In this document: positions 2,598 through 39,298 of the stretch, in pieces
How the letters are laid out: every line of letters begins with the position of its first letter
How positions within the stretch are numbered: the stretch's first letter is position 1
Assembly (NCBI RefSeq): GCF_000147355.1
Contig: NC_014506.1
Span: 1,364,001 to 1,428,000 of the forward strand
From: Sulfurimonas autotrophica DSM 16294
Lineage (GTDB): Bacteria > Campylobacterota > Campylobacteria > Campylobacterales > Sulfurimonadaceae
Length of the DNA stretch: 64,000 nucleotides
Direction: 5' to 3'
Notes under the pieces: model-generated
Told to the model about the DNA's origin: nothing
What the model saw: the letters and a program-made list of their open reading frames with translations, nothing else
Database searches by the model: none
Translations under genes and position numbers: made by a program

Positions 2598-3788
2598 ATG
2601 ACAAAAAAAATAATTTTAATCTTAATTCTCAGTATGACACTTGATGCAAATATTATAGATTTTTATAAAAAAACAGTGACTACATTACAATACAATCAAA
2701 AATATGAACTTAATACAAAAGCAAATAAACTCAATAAAAGTGGAGTTGTATACAGTAAATACGCCAACTTTTCTTTAAATGCTGACTACAGTAAGACAAA
2801 AGCCAAAAGGTTAACCAACGCCTTTGATACGACTAATGTAACTTTCAATGATACACTCGACTTATTCGATAAAAGCAGTTACAAAATTGATGCACTCACA
2901 CTTGATTTAAAATCTAAAAAATCTGTGTTAAATATACAAAAAGAACAACTATTTATATCTCTTGTAAATATGATTGCTTTATATAACAAAACATTAGAAC
3001 AACTATCTCTATACAAAGCCCTTTTTAATGAACAAGAAGATATATATGGCAAACTACAAAAGCTGCAACAAAAAGGTGCAATTACCAGTATGGACCTGTT
3101 ACGATTCAAAAATCAGCTTACTTCTCTTGAAATGACAATAATTAATCAAGAAAATGAAATTTTAAAAATGAAAAAACAGCTTAATCTTTATGCTCCAAAT
3201 CAACAAATTCCACCATTAAAAAGTTCAAAACTACTATATTCTAAAGAAGACTTTTTAAGTAGAAACCCTCAACTTAGCCTCAACAATACAGATGCACAAA
3301 AATTATTGGTACAAGCTAAAGGCTTAGAGCGCTCCTATTTACCGGATGTAACTGCAGGGGCTGCTTACCAACAACTCGGTGATCCGACATCTTATGGAAA
3401 TAATTACTCTTTCATTGTTGGTCTGCAAATACCACTCAATGCAGGTAATTTTAAAGAAGCCCAAGCTTTAAAAGTAAAGGCATTAAGTCTAAAATCTCAA
3501 AATATACAATATAAAATTCGACGAAAAAATGAATATACAACAAGATATCAAGACTATATAAATGCAGTCCAACAGCTCAAGGTTTTATATAAAAATTTGG
3601 ATGACTATGAAAAAAGTGAAAAAACCATTAAAACCGCATACTTACGACAATATGTTGATTTTAATACTTACATGCAGACTCTTTTGCAAACTTTACATGT
3701 AAAAGAGCAAATTCTTGAAATAAAATCTAAAAAAGAATTAGAAGCTACTGTATTAAATAACATTGCCTCAGGTATTATTTATGAATAA
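2598..3788 (+). CDS. TolC-family outer membrane efflux protein
   Basis: A 396-residue protein with a signal peptide (about 1-17, ending LDA) and long amphipathic helices rich in Gln, Lys and Leu (about 80-190 and 280-385), typical of the OEP/TolC alpha-barrel. The conserved PxLxLxN-type stretch and a GxxYQxLGDP region are near 220-280. It is shorter than E. coli TolC (about 470 mature residues). It is the first gene of a tolC-ATPase-HlyD-FtsX operon and overlaps the ATPase gene by 8 nt, so it is probably the dedicated outer-membrane exit duct of that exporter. Confidence 0.88.
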   Translation: MTKKIILILILSMTLDANIIDFYKKTVTTLQYNQKYELNTKANKLNKSGVVYSKYANFSLNADYSKTKAKRLTNAFDTTNVTFNDTLDLFDKSSYKIDALTLDLKSKKSVLNIQKEQLFISLVNMIALYNKTLEQLSLYKALFNEQEDIYGKLQKLQQKGAITSMDLLRFKNQLTSLEMTIINQENEILKMKKQLNLYAPNQQIPPLKSSKLLYSKEDFLSRNPQLSLNNTDAQKLLVQAKGLERSYLPDVTAGAAYQQLGDPTSYGNNYSFIVGLQIPLNAGNFKEAQALKVKALSLKSQNIQYKIRRKNEYTTRYQDYINAVQQLKVLYKNLDDYEKSEKTIKTAYLRQYVDFNTYMQTLLQTLHVKEQILEIKSKKELEATVLNNIASGIIYE

Positions 3789-4470
3789 AACTATCTTACA
3801 CTGCAAAGATATTATAAAAACATTTGGAAGCGGAGAGTCTGAAGTATTTGCATTGCGCGGAGTAACACTTGATGTATATGAAGGTGAGTTATTAATGCTT
3901 GTAGGCCCTTCAGGATGCGGAAAAACAACCTTTGTTTCTGTGATTACGGCACTGCTTAGCTTTGACAGTGGTATCTGTAATGTTTTAGGACATGATTTGA
4001 CAACTATGGATGAAGATGAAAAAGTACTCTTTCGAGGCAAATCAGTCGGTTTTGTTTTTCAGGCTTTTAATCTGCTTCCATCTCTGACAGCAGTTGAAAA
4101 TGTAGCACTGCCTTTGACTATAGCAGGAGAAAAACGAGCGATAGCTCTCCAAAAAGCAAAAGCGATGCTCGATGAAGTAGAGCTCAGTTCAAAATATGAC
4201 GTCAGACCGTCTCATTTAAGTGGCGGACAGCAACAGCGTGTTGCCATTGCCAGAGCTTTGGTTCATAACCCTGAATTTATTATTTGCGATGAACCGACAA
4301 GCAGTCTTGACCATAAATCAGGTCAGATTGTTATGGAACTGCTCAGTAAAATGACAAAAGAAAAAGGAAAAACAATGATAGTCGTAACCCATGACAATAG
4401 AATATATGAATATGGTGACAGAATGGCACATATGGAAGATGGAAAAATTATCAAGATAGAGGAAAATTAA
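3781..4470 (+). CDS. ABC transporter ATPase, LolD/MacB/DevA type
   Basis: A 229-residue nucleotide-binding subunit. Walker A GPSGCGKTT is at 42-50, the signature LSGGQQQRVAIA starts at 146, and the Walker B FIICDEP ends near 172 with SSLD after it. An upstream in-frame start (3763) exists, but the ATG at 3781 gives the normal N-terminus (MNKTILHCKDI) and an 8-nt overlap with the tolC-like gene. It should energise the FtsX-type permease encoded two genes downstream. Confidence 0.93.
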   Translation: MNKTILHCKDIIKTFGSGESEVFALRGVTLDVYEGELLMLVGPSGCGKTTFVSVITALLSFDSGICNVLGHDLTTMDEDEKVLFRGKSVGFVFQAFNLLPSLTAVENVALPLTIAGEKRAIALQKAKAMLDEVELSSKYDVRPSHLSGGQQQRVAIARALVHNPEFIICDEPTSSLDHKSGQIVMELLSKMTKEKGKTMIVVTHDNRIYEYGDRMAHMEDGKIIKIEEN

Positions 4471-4471
4471 T

Positions 4472-5362
4472 ATGAAAAGTTTTTACACACTTCTAGTTTT
4501 ATCAATTATCGGCATTATAGTCGGACTTGGGGTCATTTTTTACGATCAAAGGCCAAAAGAGTCTCAAACAGAGCCTATACCGGAGTTAAAACCGCCTTAC
4601 AAAAATTTTATTGCAGGTACTGGAATAGTTGAATCAGGAAGTAAAAATATTCAAATAGGTTCTTCTATTTCCGGTGTCATCTCCAAAGTCAATGTCGAGA
4701 GCGGAGACAATGTTAAAAAGGGAGAATTACTTTTTACTCTTAATGAAAAAAATCTCACAGCAAAAATAACAGCTTTACAGGCTGAAATTGAACTCGCAAA
4801 AACAAAGCTTCAAAAAGCACAGCATCAATTTCAAATTATTAAAAGCTTTAAAAAAGTTTCTCCGCAGATGGTAAAGAAAACAAAATACACTGCTGCAAAA
4901 GATAGTGTAACAGAGGCAGAAGCGGCCCTATCTGTTGCCAAATCAAAACTTAAAGTTTTACAAAAAGAGTTGTCTTTGTATACTGTTTACAGCCCGATAG
5001 ACGGCAAAGTTTTAGAGTCCAAGCTTAATATCGGAAAATATTTTGCTCCAAGCAGTAAATTACTTATTCTTGGTAGCAGTACACTTAATCTGCGCGTTGA
5101 TATTAACGAATACGATGTATACAAGTTTATGCCAGATACAAATGCAGTTGCTTTTGTTCGCGGACACCCAAAACTCAAAATATCGCTCAAATATCTTTAC
5201 ACTATGCCTTATGTCGTTCCTAAGAAAAACCTCACAGGTATTGCGACAGAGAGAACGGATACAAGAGTTTTACAAGTGCTTTATGCCTTGCCGAAAAAAG
5301 TAGATTTTCCTCTCTTTGTAGGGCAACAACTTGATGTATTTGTGCAAAGTAAGGACAAGTAA
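4472..5362 (+). CDS. HlyD/DevB-type periplasmic adaptor (membrane fusion) protein
   Basis: A 296-residue protein with an N-terminal membrane anchor (about 6-24), a lipoyl-like half (IQIGSSISGVISKVNVESGDNVKKG, 61-85; shown as the family pattern), a helical hairpin (about 95-165, rich in K, A, L, E) and a second lipoyl half (VYSPIDGKV, about 171-179). This is the DevB/MacA layout that bridges an inner-membrane FtsX-type permease and TolC. One base separates it from the ATPase gene, and the permease follows immediately. Confidence 0.9.
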   Translation: MKSFYTLLVLSIIGIIVGLGVIFYDQRPKESQTEPIPELKPPYKNFIAGTGIVESGSKNIQIGSSISGVISKVNVESGDNVKKGELLFTLNEKNLTAKITALQAEIELAKTKLQKAQHQFQIIKSFKKVSPQMVKKTKYTAAKDSVTEAEAALSVAKSKLKVLQKELSLYTVYSPIDGKVLESKLNIGKYFAPSSKLLILGSSTLNLRVDINEYDVYKFMPDTNAVAFVRGHPKLKISLKYLYTMPYVVPKKNLTGIATERTDTRVLQVLYALPKKVDFPLFVGQQLDVFVQSKDK

Positions 5363-6556
5363 ATGTTTCGTGTAGCTGTCGAAATGCTTATGGGAGATAA
5401 GACCAAATACATCGGGCTTATACTAGGGATTACTTTTACTGCTTTTTTGGTTACTTTTGCACTTTCATATTTTGCAGGTTTTATGACACGAGGATTCTCT
5501 CTTGTCAATGAAAACCCCACAGCAGATGTCTGGGTTATGGACAGTGCGGTAAACTCTACAGAAGCCACAATAAATATGCCAAACTCTGCACTTGATTTGG
5601 TAAGAAGCGTCAGTGGCGTGAGTTATGCTACACCACTCTATATCGGTGATGCTACAGCAAGGTTTCCAAACGGACATTTTCAAAAATTTCAGCTAATAGG
5701 TGTAGATAATGCAACGCTTAGCGGTGCACCTGTTTTAAAAACGGGGCTCAAACAAAATGCACTACGCTTACCACAGAGTGTCATCGTTGACAGCGGCGGA
5801 ACAAAAGGCAAACTGCAGACACCGACAAATCAAAAAGATATGTGGAGTTATGACGGAGCACATCTGAATGTACCTACGCGTAGATTACGCTCTGGTGACG
5901 AACTTCTCATAGATGACAGACGAGTGATAGTCACAGGCGTTTCACATATGCTTGGAAGATTTCCGCCACGACCACTCATGTATACGACTGCTTCAAATTT
6001 TATACGTCTTACGCCTGCTCAAAACAAAAGAGTAACTTTTATAATGGTAAGAGCACCAAAGAACATTGTGCCTGAAATTTTGGCGCAAAAAATCCATAAT
6101 CAAACAGGATTAAAAGCTGTTACAAGTACAGAACTTAAAAAAGAAACTGTCATGTGGTACCTCATCAACTCTGAGGATGTCGGCGATATGGTAAATATGG
6201 TAATGTTGGCAATGCTTGTGGGATTTGGAGTCACAGGCGTTATGCTTTATATGTTTACCTATGAAAACCTCAAACAGTACGCCGTATTAAAAGCGATGGG
6301 TGCAACAAACAAACAACTCAGCACAATGGTATTTACACAAGCCTTTATCGGGGTTCTCATAGGAAGCGGTATAGGCATAGGAATTGCCGGATTATTTGGA
6401 GAAGCAGTCTCCAGTGCCAGTTTTCCCTTTCGTTTGATGTGGTTTGCACCTGTTCTCGGATTTTTAAGTGTTTTTATAGTAAGTGTAACTGCAGCGGTTA
6501 TCAGCGTCAGACCCGTATTAAAATTAGAACCCGGCGTAGTATTTGCGAGCAGATAA
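5363..6556 (+). CDS. FtsX/MacB-type ABC permease (DevC-like)
   Basis: A 397-residue inner-membrane permease with one N-terminal helix (about 18-38), a large periplasmic domain (40-265), and three C-terminal helices (about 272-295, 322-345, 358-382). The cytosolic loop before helix 3 has LKQYAVLKAMGATNKQL, the FtsX-family coupling pattern. It completes the exporter; such DevBCA/MacAB-like systems extrude lipids, peptides or small toxic molecules rather than pumping across one membrane. The substrate is unknown. Confidence 0.9.
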   Translation: MFRVAVEMLMGDKTKYIGLILGITFTAFLVTFALSYFAGFMTRGFSLVNENPTADVWVMDSAVNSTEATINMPNSALDLVRSVSGVSYATPLYIGDATARFPNGHFQKFQLIGVDNATLSGAPVLKTGLKQNALRLPQSVIVDSGGTKGKLQTPTNQKDMWSYDGAHLNVPTRRLRSGDELLIDDRRVIVTGVSHMLGRFPPRPLMYTTASNFIRLTPAQNKRVTFIMVRAPKNIVPEILAQKIHNQTGLKAVTSTELKKETVMWYLINSEDVGDMVNMVMLAMLVGFGVTGVMLYMFTYENLKQYAVLKAMGATNKQLSTMVFTQAFIGVLIGSGIGIGIAGLFGEAVSSASFPFRLMWFAPVLGFLSVFIVSVTAAVISVRPVLKLEPGVVFASR

Positions 6557-35661: not shown

Positions 35662-36621
35662 TTAAAGCCACACACCATTTTTTATATAATAGAAAAGCGG
35701 ATAATAACTCACTAACACTACATATAAAGTAGTAAAAAGAAGCGATACTTTATATTTTGCATTTTCTTCTTCTTTTGTAAAAGGAATAACCCCAAGAACA
35801 ATACCGTAAAAAGTACCGATAAATAAAAATATATACAAAAAATAGCCTGCATAGTTATAATCTTTTTGAAGCAGACAAAACGGGCAGTGATGTGTCGGCA
35901 GTTCGTAAATATATGTCCCAAAAAAGGCTATGAGAGAGATTAAGGCTATAATAGTAAATAATAAATTCATAAGTGAGAATAAATATCTATTTTTCATTAT
36001 ATATGCAATTATTATAAAGGTAAAAACAGCATAGAAGCTGCTCAAGAGAACAATCGGATTGATATTTAACAGACGAGCCATATAAGTGCCGTCAGTTGTA
36101 GAAAAAATAGCCCCGCAACAATCTACGACACTTTTGGTATCTATAGAAAAGAACATTATACTTTCCAAGCCTATCTCAAGCAAAAGCAGAAAATAGGCAA
36201 ATATATATACTTTAAATTTGAGTTTTAAATATATCTGCTTTTCTGATTTCATATCTTCATTGTTAAGCACTAGCCAGTAGGCAAAAATATATAAATTTAT
36301 AATTTTGAGTATAAGCAGATAATTTCCGTATTCAGTGGCATTGACAACACCCGCACCACACATCGCACCCGGTAAAATAGTTGAAATGTTATCAAGCGTA
36401 AAAATAAAAAATATAAATAATAGGACTTTAATATAAAAAATAAATTTAATAATAATAGCAACTAAATAACTCTGTTTCTCCAGATTATATTGCAGCGTTG
36501 TTGTGGCATTAAAATCATATTTCAAAACTATTTTTACACTATAGTAAAAGGCAATGGATGCAAAGATAAAAAAGAGCAGGTTGAGTATATTTATCGTCAA
36601 TACTTCGGGGGTCAGGAGCAT
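35662..36621 (-). CDS. Multi-pass membrane protein with a DsbB-like CPFC motif
   Basis: A 319-residue protein with about seven membrane helices. Cys residues at 88 (AMCGAG), 168-169 (VDCCGA) and 246/249 (HHCPFCLLQK, 244-253) stand out. The last resembles the quinone-binding DsbB motif C-x-L-C-x-x-Q-(R/K). A periplasmic thiol or metal redox role in the NosL/ABC operon is a reasonable inference. It is the last gene of the operon, overlapping the ATPase gene by 10 nt. Confidence 0.6.
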   Translation of the reverse strand: MLLTPEVLTINILNLLFFIFASIAFYYSVKIVLKYDFNATTTLQYNLEKQSYLVAIIIKFIFYIKVLLFIFFIFTLDNISTILPGAMCGAGVVNATEYGNYLLILKIINLYIFAYWLVLNNEDMKSEKQIYLKLKFKVYIFAYFLLLLEIGLESIMFFSIDTKSVVDCCGAIFSTTDGTYMARLLNINPIVLLSSFYAVFTFIIIAYIMKNRYLFSLMNLLFTIIALISLIAFFGTYIYELPTHHCPFCLLQKDYNYAGYFLYIFLFIGTFYGIVLGVIPFTKEEENAKYKVSLLFTTLYVVLVSYYPLFYYIKNGVWL

Positions 36622-37274
36622 ACTAGTTTCCCGTTATGTATCTCTACAATCCTGTCCACAAAATCCAAATCAAAAAAAAGAGGATCATGCGTAGCAACAA
36701 TGATAGTTTTATTTAAAGATTTCAATTCTTTGAGTATCTGTATAAATTCTTTGGAGAGTTTTTCATCCAAATTCGCCGTGGGTTCATCTGCCAAAATAAT
36801 TTTCGGATTATTTACATTTGCTCTGGCTATTGCAGTTCTCTGCTGTTCACCGCCGGACAAATTTTTCACAGCTATTTCTTTTTTATGCTCAATCGAAAAC
36901 ATCTGCATCACAGCTTCCAGCTTTACATGTAACTCTTTTTCATCTAAATTCAATGGAACCAAAGGCAATGTGATGTTATCTTCTACACTTAAAGTCGGAA
37001 TCAGATTATATTTTTGAAATATAAACCCGATATTATCTCTTCTGTATTGGCTACAAAAATGATCCGGTAGTTTTGATATATGTTTATTATCTACCAAAAC
37101 ATCACCACTTGTCGGTTTTAAAAGTCCGGCTATTAATGAAAGAATGGTACTTTTTCCACTGCCGCTCACACCTTTTAAAACAATCAGCTCACCCTCATTA
37201 AACTCTAAATCAATGTTGTCCAGAGCTTTAATGTCCTTGCCGTACACTTTACTTACATGTTGAAGTTTTATCAT
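36612..37274 (-). CDS. ABC transporter ATPase, LolD/MacB type
   Basis: A 220-residue nucleotide-binding subunit: Walker [10 protein letters not shown], signature [12 protein letters not shown], Walker [13 protein letters not shown]. Upstream and downstream genes overlap it by 4 nt and 10 nt, so it should pair with the FtsX-type permease encoded just upstream. A TTACATGTAA copy is at 36923. Confidence 0.92.
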
Positions 37275-38443
37275 CTTATTACCTCGTCAGCATCAAGAGT
37301 AGCAACTCTCCATGAAGGAATAACTGTTGCAAACATATATACCGGTACACTCAGTAAGAAGAGTAACAGTAATATTTCATAATCAAGAACAAAAGGAAGC
37401 GTAAAATTATTACTAATATCATTATAGGCTATAAATATATTTTTTATTATCGGGGCATTTAAAATATATACAAAAAACAGTGCCAAAGTAATACCAATAA
37501 TATAAGAGAAAAAAGAGATGATTAAACCCTCATATAATCTTGCTTGGAGAACATCTTCGATTCTCCACCCTATTGCTTTGAGTATGCCTATCTCTTTTTT
37601 TTCTTCACTGCTGAGTCCGCTTGATTTATCATAGATAATTATAAAAAATGTAAAGAGCGTTATGATAAATAAAATGAGAAATATAGAACTTTTATAATTA
37701 AATTGACTCTCTAGGGATATTTTCAAATCCTTCCTGGCGACAACTTTAAATGTCGGAAACAAGTTTTGAATTTTCAGCATCACAGAAGCGACTTCTGCCG
37801 GGTTATCTACTGTCACTGCCAAATCTGTAGCTTCTCTGTTTTTATAGCCAAAAATCTCTCTTAGGGCATCTTTACTCATGACTATCATATCATTTGACTC
37901 CAACTTGGTTGCAGCTTTAAATATTCCGGCTATATAGATTTTTTTGACTGCTAAATCGGGAGTAATAAAGTTAAAATATTCACGATAATAACTTTGATTC
38001 ATTATCTTTTTAACACCCTCACCAATAAGCATTGATGAAGTATTGAGTTCACTGTTTTGTACAATATTTGCCAATGTAGCATTATACTGATTTTCAAATT
38101 CATCAATGCCGACTAAAATAAATTTTGCATTCATATGTTTAAAATCATAATATCCCCATACTCTTGAGACAACATCGCCGACACCTTTAATATTTAGAAT
38201 AGTATCTATGACATTTTCATCGACAGTAGTATCTCTGCCAGCTTTTTGATTCGTTATAATTATCTGAGGTTGGGCATCAACAGTTGATTCAAATTCATAC
38301 TTTAATGAATTTTGCACAAAGAAAAATGATGCTAAAACAGCGATGAGCAGTGTTAATACTATGGCTATAAATATATTTTTTGATTTATATCGTAAAATGT
38401 AATTAATTGCATATTCAAGAAGATAAAAATTGATTTTTTTCAT
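37271..38443 (-). CDS. FtsX/MacB-type ABC permease
   Basis: A 390-residue permease with one N-terminal helix (about 25-45), a periplasmic domain (46-255), and three C-terminal helices (about 255-275, 308-332, 350-372). The loop [20 protein letters not shown] before helix 3 is the FtsX-family cytosolic motif. It sits between a 65-residue membrane protein and the ATPase, each overlapping by 4 nt. Confidence 0.9.
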
Positions 38444-38637
38444 GGTAATGTCTTTATATAATTGTTTTTTAATGCCAAGCTTAAATTAGAAACAGTCGTT
38501 ATTTTTATAAACTTCTTTTTCTCTGCGAGCTCTATCTGCGTAAAAGTATGTCTATATTGCAAATAAAATATCTCCACTCCTACTAAAAGAAGTAAAGCGC
38601 TACATGTAAAGATACAAACACGGCTTTTTTTATTCAT
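38440..38637 (-). CDS. Small single-helix membrane protein
   Basis: A 65-residue protein with one membrane helix (about 7-27) and a basic, beta-rich tail ([13 protein letters not shown]). It overlaps the NosL gene by 8 nt and the permease gene by 4 nt, so it is a real operon member. It may anchor or adapt the ABC complex. A CTACATGTAA copy is at 38600. Confidence 0.7.
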
Positions 38638-39298
38638 CTAATTTATACACTGCTTCAGGTTTTATCTCATCAAATTTGAGTATTTTCTTGCCTTTATGGT
38701 CAAGATAGAATCGTTTTGCAGACTCTTCATCCTTAAAAGCTATCAACTCATTTCCCATCGGTCCGTAGACATCGCTCCCCATGACATAATAGGCTTTTTT
38801 CGCATCTATAACTTTTTGCGTGTAATATTCCTGCACCAACATATTTTTTATATTGTCTGGATGTTCAAAATAATACTTCATCATATCTTTTATACCATCA
38901 AAAGATATATTATTATCATTATATTCTATACGCGAAATCCATCTTGGGTATTTGTATAAAAGCATACCACATACAGGACATTTATCCTTTTTCGTAACTG
39001 TCAATTTTTTATAATATTTGTGTTGTTTGGACGCTCTTTTCACATCCCATAAATAAAGACTTAAAGCTTGGGCATATTTTTTATTTAATGTTGGACAAAT
39101 TTTTTTTGCAAGAAGTGCTTCATAAAGTTCTTCATAGCTTTTGTAACTATTCACATCTACATGGAAACATTTTTTCTTATAAATCTTTTCACCCATAGGG
39201 TAAAGCTTTTTCTCTTTTACGGCTTGTGAATAATTTGGATAAGAAAAAAGTGAAGTAGAAAAAATAAAAAAAAGAATAAAAAGTTTAAAAATTGACAT
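38630..39298 (-). CDS. NosL-family protein with a heme-less cytochrome-like N-terminal domain
   Basis: A 222-residue protein with a signal peptide (about 1-19). Residues ~30-85 follow class I cytochrome c layout (GEKIYKKKC ... ICPTLNKKYAQALSLYLWD) but the CxxCH heme site is absent (KKCFHVD). Residues ~105-215 are NosL: CPVCGMLLYKYPRW then ISFDGIKDMMKYYF and YVMGSDVYGPMG. NosL delivers copper to nitrous oxide reductase in known systems; the partner here is unknown. It is the first gene of the five-gene operon. Confidence 0.8.
   Translation of the reverse strand: MSIFKLFILFFIFSTSLFSYPNYSQAVKEKKLYPMGEKIYKKKCFHVDVNSYKSYEELYEALLAKKICPTLNKKYAQALSLYLWDVKRASKQHKYYKKLTVTKKDKCPVCGMLLYKYPRWISRIEYNDNNISFDGIKDMMKYYFEHPDNIKNMLVQEYYTQKVIDAKKAYYVMGSDVYGPMGNELIAFKDEESAKRFYLDHKGKKILKFDEIKPEAVYKLDE

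Follow-up and report, generated by a model that had tools for sequence, protein, structure and literature searches.

What is the function of an operon that joins a NosL-family protein to an ABC pair of the LolD/FtsX class and to a membrane protein with five invariant cysteines? The question is raised by a locus in a 64,000-nt stretch of the Sulfurimonas autotrophica DSM 16294 genome (NC_014506.1, positions 1,364,001 to 1,428,000; from here on, the window), the genome itself being a single contig of 2,153,198 bp. In our analysis, this operon proves to be a pared-down version of a cassette found phylum-wide in Campylobacterota. Our best reading of the cassette is a type VII ABC, NosL-based machine for Cu(I) delivery or site assembly, which would work like NosDFYL without being a member of it. 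That the cassette is tied to copper has good support from association, and each step of the mechanism is what we infer.

The five genes and their products

The operon consists of five ORFs, all on the minus strand, spanning window positions 35662-39298. From first to last, they encode a NosL-family protein of 222 aa (38630..39298), a small protein of 65 aa with a single transmembrane (TM) helix (38440..38637), an FtsX/LolC-type (type VII) ABC permease of 390 aa (37271..38443), a LolD/FtsE-type ATPase of 220 aa (36612..37274), and a membrane protein of 319 aa with 8 TM helices that belongs to an unclassified family (35662..36621). Consecutive genes overlap by 8, 4, 4, and 10 nt, exactly as a preliminary description of the locus had reported. 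Such overlaps are not the product of chance, because 4-nt junctions recur in the relatives (the overlap is exactly 4 nt in 40 of 56 at the FtsX-ATPase junction, and in 29 of 57 at the junction of the ATPase with the 8-TM gene) and the genes stand in the same order across 58 loci. The overlaps and the order kept over those loci also support the view, put forward in the same description, that the five genes form one unit. Scans for promoters and terminators gave a signal barely above that of shuffled sequences. Upstream of the operon and on the same strand we find htpX, prmC, and a DUF4149 gene, a neighborhood common to other Sulfurimonas copies. Elsewhere in the window (2598-6556, plus strand), inspection of the ORF sequences by eye reveals a MacAB-TolC-like exporter, with a TolC-like protein, a LolD-type ATPase, an HlyD-like adaptor, and an FtsX-type permease in a row.

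Calling the first protein NosL turns out to be right by profile, by motif, and by fold. It has a signal peptide, a cytochrome-c-like domain without a heme motif, and a NosL domain, and it matches the Pfam NosL family PF05573 at 1.7e-36 (125.9 bits vs. a gathering threshold of 24). The NosL domain covers residues 99-217 (38648..39004, minus strand), as delimited by profile and structural matches, and includes the CXM Cu(I) motif C110-G-M112. In alignment A2 of 37 sequences, residues C107, C110, G111, M112, and M181 are invariant; a Cu(I)-binding CXM motif and a second Met have been described for NosL (PMC6530538). Using a structural model of the protein (pLDDT 90.7), the best structural matches of the domain are the NosL of the NosDFYL complex and the S. 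denitrificans NosL, with Z 16.4-17.4 over 122-126 residues, and a Foldseek search also matches the NosL fold (E 2.3e-8).

The N-terminal part of the same protein, residues 19-93 (39020..39244, minus strand), is modeled as a cytochrome-c-like three-helix domain that has no CXXCH motif and carries two near-invariant cysteines, C44 and C68. Its structural matches are mostly cytochromes c6/c552, the best of them at a modest Z of 6.8 (64 residues, rmsd 2.4), which suggests a cytochrome-c fold that may have lost its heme.

The small TM protein is present in most loci and usually ends in F-[VI]-Y. The window copy is shortened and lacks this ending. Its nearest relatives also have the 65-aa form (80% identity in locus L120), and the gene is absent from five other Sulfurimonas loci.

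Regarding the ABC pair, the preliminary description had placed it in the LolD/FtsX class and not with NosFY. We agree: the permease matches PF02687 (4.4e-14), the ATPase (PF00005, 2.3e-36) is of the FtsE/LolD type, and the operon has no NosD, NosF, or NosY. The nearest PDB relatives of the permease are LolC (1.7e-8) and then MacB, and the best models for the ATPase are FtsE/LolD, all of them under their equivalog cut-offs. This affinity raises the alternative of a LolCDE-like lipoprotein sorter or a MacB-like exporter, which would move NosL-type lipoproteins or copper away from the inner membrane region in trafficking or detoxification. NosL is a lipoprotein in NosDFYL systems (PMC7558416), and the NosL-like protein of the nos locus in the same S. 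autotrophica genome has a lipoprotein-like signal, both of which would suit such a sorter. But the models that define LolC/E and LolD score far below their cut-offs (56.7 vs. 362 bits and 181 vs. 308 bits, respectively), and the signal of the window NosL has no lipobox Cys; the lipobox pattern appears in only one member of the NosL cluster. Nor would detoxification explain the tie of the cassette to mccA that we describe below. We regard a sorter or exporter of this kind as very unlikely.

The 8-TM cysteine protein

The last gene of the operon had been described as DsbB-like. In a confident model (pLDDT 91.6) the protein has 8 TM helices, and alignment A1 of the family has 21 invariant columns. 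Five of the invariant residues (100% of 59 sequences) are cysteines: C88, which belongs to a GAMC motif and sits in the loop that follows TM2 (36358..36360, minus strand); the pair C168-C169, in the loop after TM4 (36115..36120, minus strand); and C246-P-x-C249, preceded by the invariant H244 and located in the loop that follows TM6 (35875..35886, minus strand). M87 is also invariant. Because the five cysteines fall in the loops after TM2, TM4, and TM6, they lie on the same side of the membrane, and this Cys-bearing face would be the periplasmic one.

The protein has no Pfam, NCBIfam, or PDB-sequence relative, and no significant Foldseek match. Profiles for DsbB and VKOR searched against 50 members of the family report no DsbB match, and one single weak VKOR match (E 0.015). 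Fold comparison to DsbB and VKOR likewise gives nothing significant by Foldseek, and the VIA rows are within helical-bundle noise. Thus, we set aside the DsbB label, for which profiles, PDB sequences, and fold matches give no support beyond the CxxC motif.

A thiol-redox role is another alternative. One could propose that the 8-TM protein reduces or oxidizes the cysteines of an apo-enzyme (either heme-binding or CuA/copper cysteines), while the ABC pair supplies reductant and NosL holds the substrate. The CxxC and CC motifs, the VKOR match of that one member, a DsbD_2 gene found downstream in nine loci, and the linkage to a CcsBA heme lyase in mcc clusters are all consistent with this proposal. 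On the other hand, it draws no support from the DsbB, VKOR, or thioredoxin families, we noticed no thioredoxin-fold partner in the operon, and most copies come with NosL proteins that bear the Cu(I) motif. A system dedicated mainly to thiol redox is therefore an unlikely description of the cassette.

The cassette across Campylobacterota and its links to mcc and nos clusters

In order to follow the cassette in other genomes, we use the 8-TM gene as its marker. Of the 298 Campylobacterota genomes examined, 106 carry the marker, for a total of 125 copies, and 26 of 58 genera are represented. Among the best 80 of 401 relatives in one genome scan, all are consistent with Campylobacterota, and a search of plasmids reported no match. 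The full cassette has a NosL, a small membrane protein, an FtsX permease, a LolD-type ATPase, the 8-TM protein with its five cysteines that never vary, and in many cases one more NosL-like protein. Of 58 loci that we examined, 56 have an adjacent permease and 57 an adjacent ATPase; a NosL is found upstream in 42 (so the adjacent upstream NosL is missing from about a quarter of the loci), and a NosL-like protein is found downstream in 38. The window copy is reduced in three respects: it does not have the additional N-terminal NosL domain found in relatives of its NosL, it does not have the longer F-[VI]-Y small protein, and it does not have the adjacent sixth (NosL-like) gene.

Some copies have distinct surroundings. 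In Arcobacter-like genomes (loci L065, L067, L068), copies are near-identical, with one of them inside a nos cluster and the others outside, a recent duplication. Another genome that holds an mcc-linked copy has a second, highly divergent one (L076, G166:C1:613501-633500), which is preceded by CcoG, of the cupric-reductase family, and by a multi-TM protein that resembles a TehA/SLAC1-type transporter. In six loci (L049, L060-L062, L087, L094), ExbB, ExbD, and TonB-like genes are upstream of the cassette, and in L049 it is near a TonB-dependent receptor that scores best with the copper-receptor model, though under its cut-off.

The first neighborhood link is to MccA, a heme-copper sulfite reductase as PMC7558416 cites it from Hermann 2015. 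Our MccA query was confirmed by its match to PDB 4rkm (7.8e-223), and the CX15CH motif is present in its cluster. All 48 genomes that have MccA at 63% identity or more also have the cassette. In these, 47 cassette copies are within 16 kb of mccA, and in the 48th genome mccA and the cassette are on different contigs. The order in the mcc loci examined is MccA, PPIase, NrfC-like, NrfD-like, CcsBA, Sel1 repeat, NosL, small TM, FtsX, ATPase, 8-TM, and NosL-like; in one of the mcc-linked loci, a second FtsX-ATPase pair directly follows the cassette (L072:6780-8479). A tree of 59 sequences places the 16 mcc-linked ones in one clade (100/97). The window copy falls outside this clade, and a search of the S. 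autotrophica genome reported no MccA match. MccA homologs of about 50% identity mostly occur without the cassette. They lack CX15CH and keep both copper-ligand cysteines, and with both present a loss of copper ligands is rejected as the cause of the missing cassette. In loci L100-L104 and L108-L111, these homologs are paired with a second six-heme cytochrome.

The second link is to nosZ. The preliminary description had remarked on the lack of a nosZ at this locus. That is correct for the window; it does not hold for the genome, where nosZ is found 570 kb away (C1:1970159-1971958), so that its absence is an effect of the window, and the operon is not physically linked to it. Next to that nosZ are nosB, D, G, C1, C2, H, F, Y, and L, a full nos cluster that includes its own nosDFYL. 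Across the relatives, the five genes are strongly co-conserved and their neighborhood is not always that of nosZ: only 15 of the 125 copies are within 22 kb of one, several of them inside the nos operon. In the tree of 59 sequences, nos linkage has changed at least 8 times, as would be expected from repeated recruitment to a copper enzyme. At the level of genera, cassette and nosZ are strongly associated (20 with both, 6 with the cassette only, 4 with nosZ only, 28 with neither; p 7e-7); at the species level, p values are inflated by relatedness. We also observe, in one genome, a nosZ match split into two parts with about 1.3 kb between them (G166:C1:870653-873755), so this nosZ is interrupted.

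Could the cassette then be an accessory of NosZ only, a piece detached from a nos cluster? The copies in or beside nos clusters, the strong co-occurrence, and the presence of nosZ in S. autotrophica all speak for it. So does a "five-gene insertion" in the nos cluster of Sulfurospirillum cavolei, given without a function (PMC4794192). The described order of that insertion (hypothetical, permease, ATPase, hypothetical, hypothetical) corresponds to the small TM, FtsX, ATPase, 8-TM, and NosL-like genes of our nos-linked loci, and by this gene order it is probably the same cassette. Against such a dedicated role, the cassette is retained in four Sulfurimonas genomes, 99-100% complete, that have neither nosZ nor mccA, and many copies reside in mcc clusters. 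Moreover, nosZ occurs in 21 genomes that have no cassette, thus the cassette is not required for NosZ, and S. autotrophica already has a nosDFYL of its own. The nosZ-free cassette genomes and the 47 mcc-linked copies lead us to reject NosZ as the sole client, and we give very little credence to the detached-piece explanation.

A proposed role in copper delivery and its candidate clients

We return to copper delivery. On balance we judge it probable that the operon encodes an ATP-driven, periplasm-facing complex for Cu(I) handling, whose role is the metallation of respiratory copper enzymes. From its motif and fold, NosL would bind Cu(I) at the CXM site. From their family, the FtsX permease and the LolD-type ATPase would form a type VII ABC, a class that acts by mechanotransmission (PMC12646458), and would perform mechanical work on the periplasmic side, not copper transport across the membrane. 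The five thiols, the Met, and the His on one membrane face of the 8-TM protein may constitute a membrane copper/thiol site, which could feed or receive Cu(I), or keep it reduced. The cargo would then be handed to a client enzyme: MccA in mcc clusters, NosZ in nos clusters, and, where both are missing, some additional or general client. In favor of this reading we count the CXM motif and NosL fold, the invariant cysteines gathered on one side of the 8-TM protein, the presence of the cassette in every genome with a close MccA, the single mcc clade, the shifting nos linkage, the association with nosZ among genera, and the copper-related genes near the copies in L049 and L076. Weighing against it are the nosZ genomes that do without the cassette, the MccA homologs of about 50% identity that keep both cysteines and mostly go without it, the cassette genomes that have neither nosZ nor a close mccA, and the loci with no adjacent upstream NosL.

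Which one could be that further client? The 26 cassette genomes without nosZ or a close mccA have the cbb3 oxidase subunit CcoN in 25 cases, and a multicopper oxidase in 4. No convincing CuA oxidase subunit was found in those 26 genomes or in S. autotrophica, in which the sole COX2 match over threshold lies inside NosZ. Counted in these 26 genomes, cbb3 oxidase is suggestive as the only near-universal client candidate; for S. autotrophica, the candidates are NosZ and cbb3 oxidase. The comparison of neighborhoods for copper enzymes, which the preliminary description had proposed, thus returns mccA and nosZ as neighbors, and cbb3 oxidase as a matter of genome content. The same description had considered a periplasmic copper/thiol machine for an unknown enzyme. 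Its copper handling is supported; the "unknown enzyme" can be narrowed down, because the relatives that lie within mcc and nos clusters point to two candidate clients.

How does this compare with known systems? Like NosDFYL, the cassette combines a NosL chaperone with an ABC acting on the periplasmic side, often in the same cluster. Unlike it, the cassette has no NosD, NosF, or NosY, its ABC is of the LolD/FtsX type (type VII), it has the 8-TM Cys protein in addition, and it also occurs with mccA and without nosZ. With the type VII ABCs (LolCDE, MacAB, FtsEX, YbbAP-TesA; PMC12646458) it shares an FtsX-domain permease, a LolD/FtsE-type ATPase, and a partner that sets the function, but here the partners are NosL and the unclassified 8-TM protein, and the scores stay under the LolC/LolD equivalog cut-offs. 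The P19/FTR1 system of Campylobacter jejuni (PMC6083913), from the same phylum, also has ABC permeases and an ATPase beside membrane/redox proteins. It differs in being built on FTR1, P19, and thioredoxins, in having two permeases, and in being reported for iron. A Parageobacillus NosDFY-NosL locus without NosZ (PMC13068155) resembles ours in that a NosL relay is proposed for a non-NosZ enzyme; it uses NosDFY, however, and is Gram-positive.

Tentatively, and with the odds somewhat against it, we further propose that the 8-TM proteins make up a new family for the handling of Cu(I) (or copper and sulfide), and that together with the type VII ABC, which would drive them, and NosL they assemble copper sites by a second route, independent of NosDFY, on which MccA, clade II nitrous oxide reductase, and one or more other enzymes would all draw.

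The reduction of N2O keeps a greenhouse gas in check, and NosZ has a known bottleneck in its copper supply. A cassette that recurs in mcc and nos clusters bears on the copper route to MccA, and on what clade II N2O reducers need beyond NosDFYL. If our reading is true, copper delivery would join the jobs performed by type VII ABC systems, and a family of membrane proteins would be defined.
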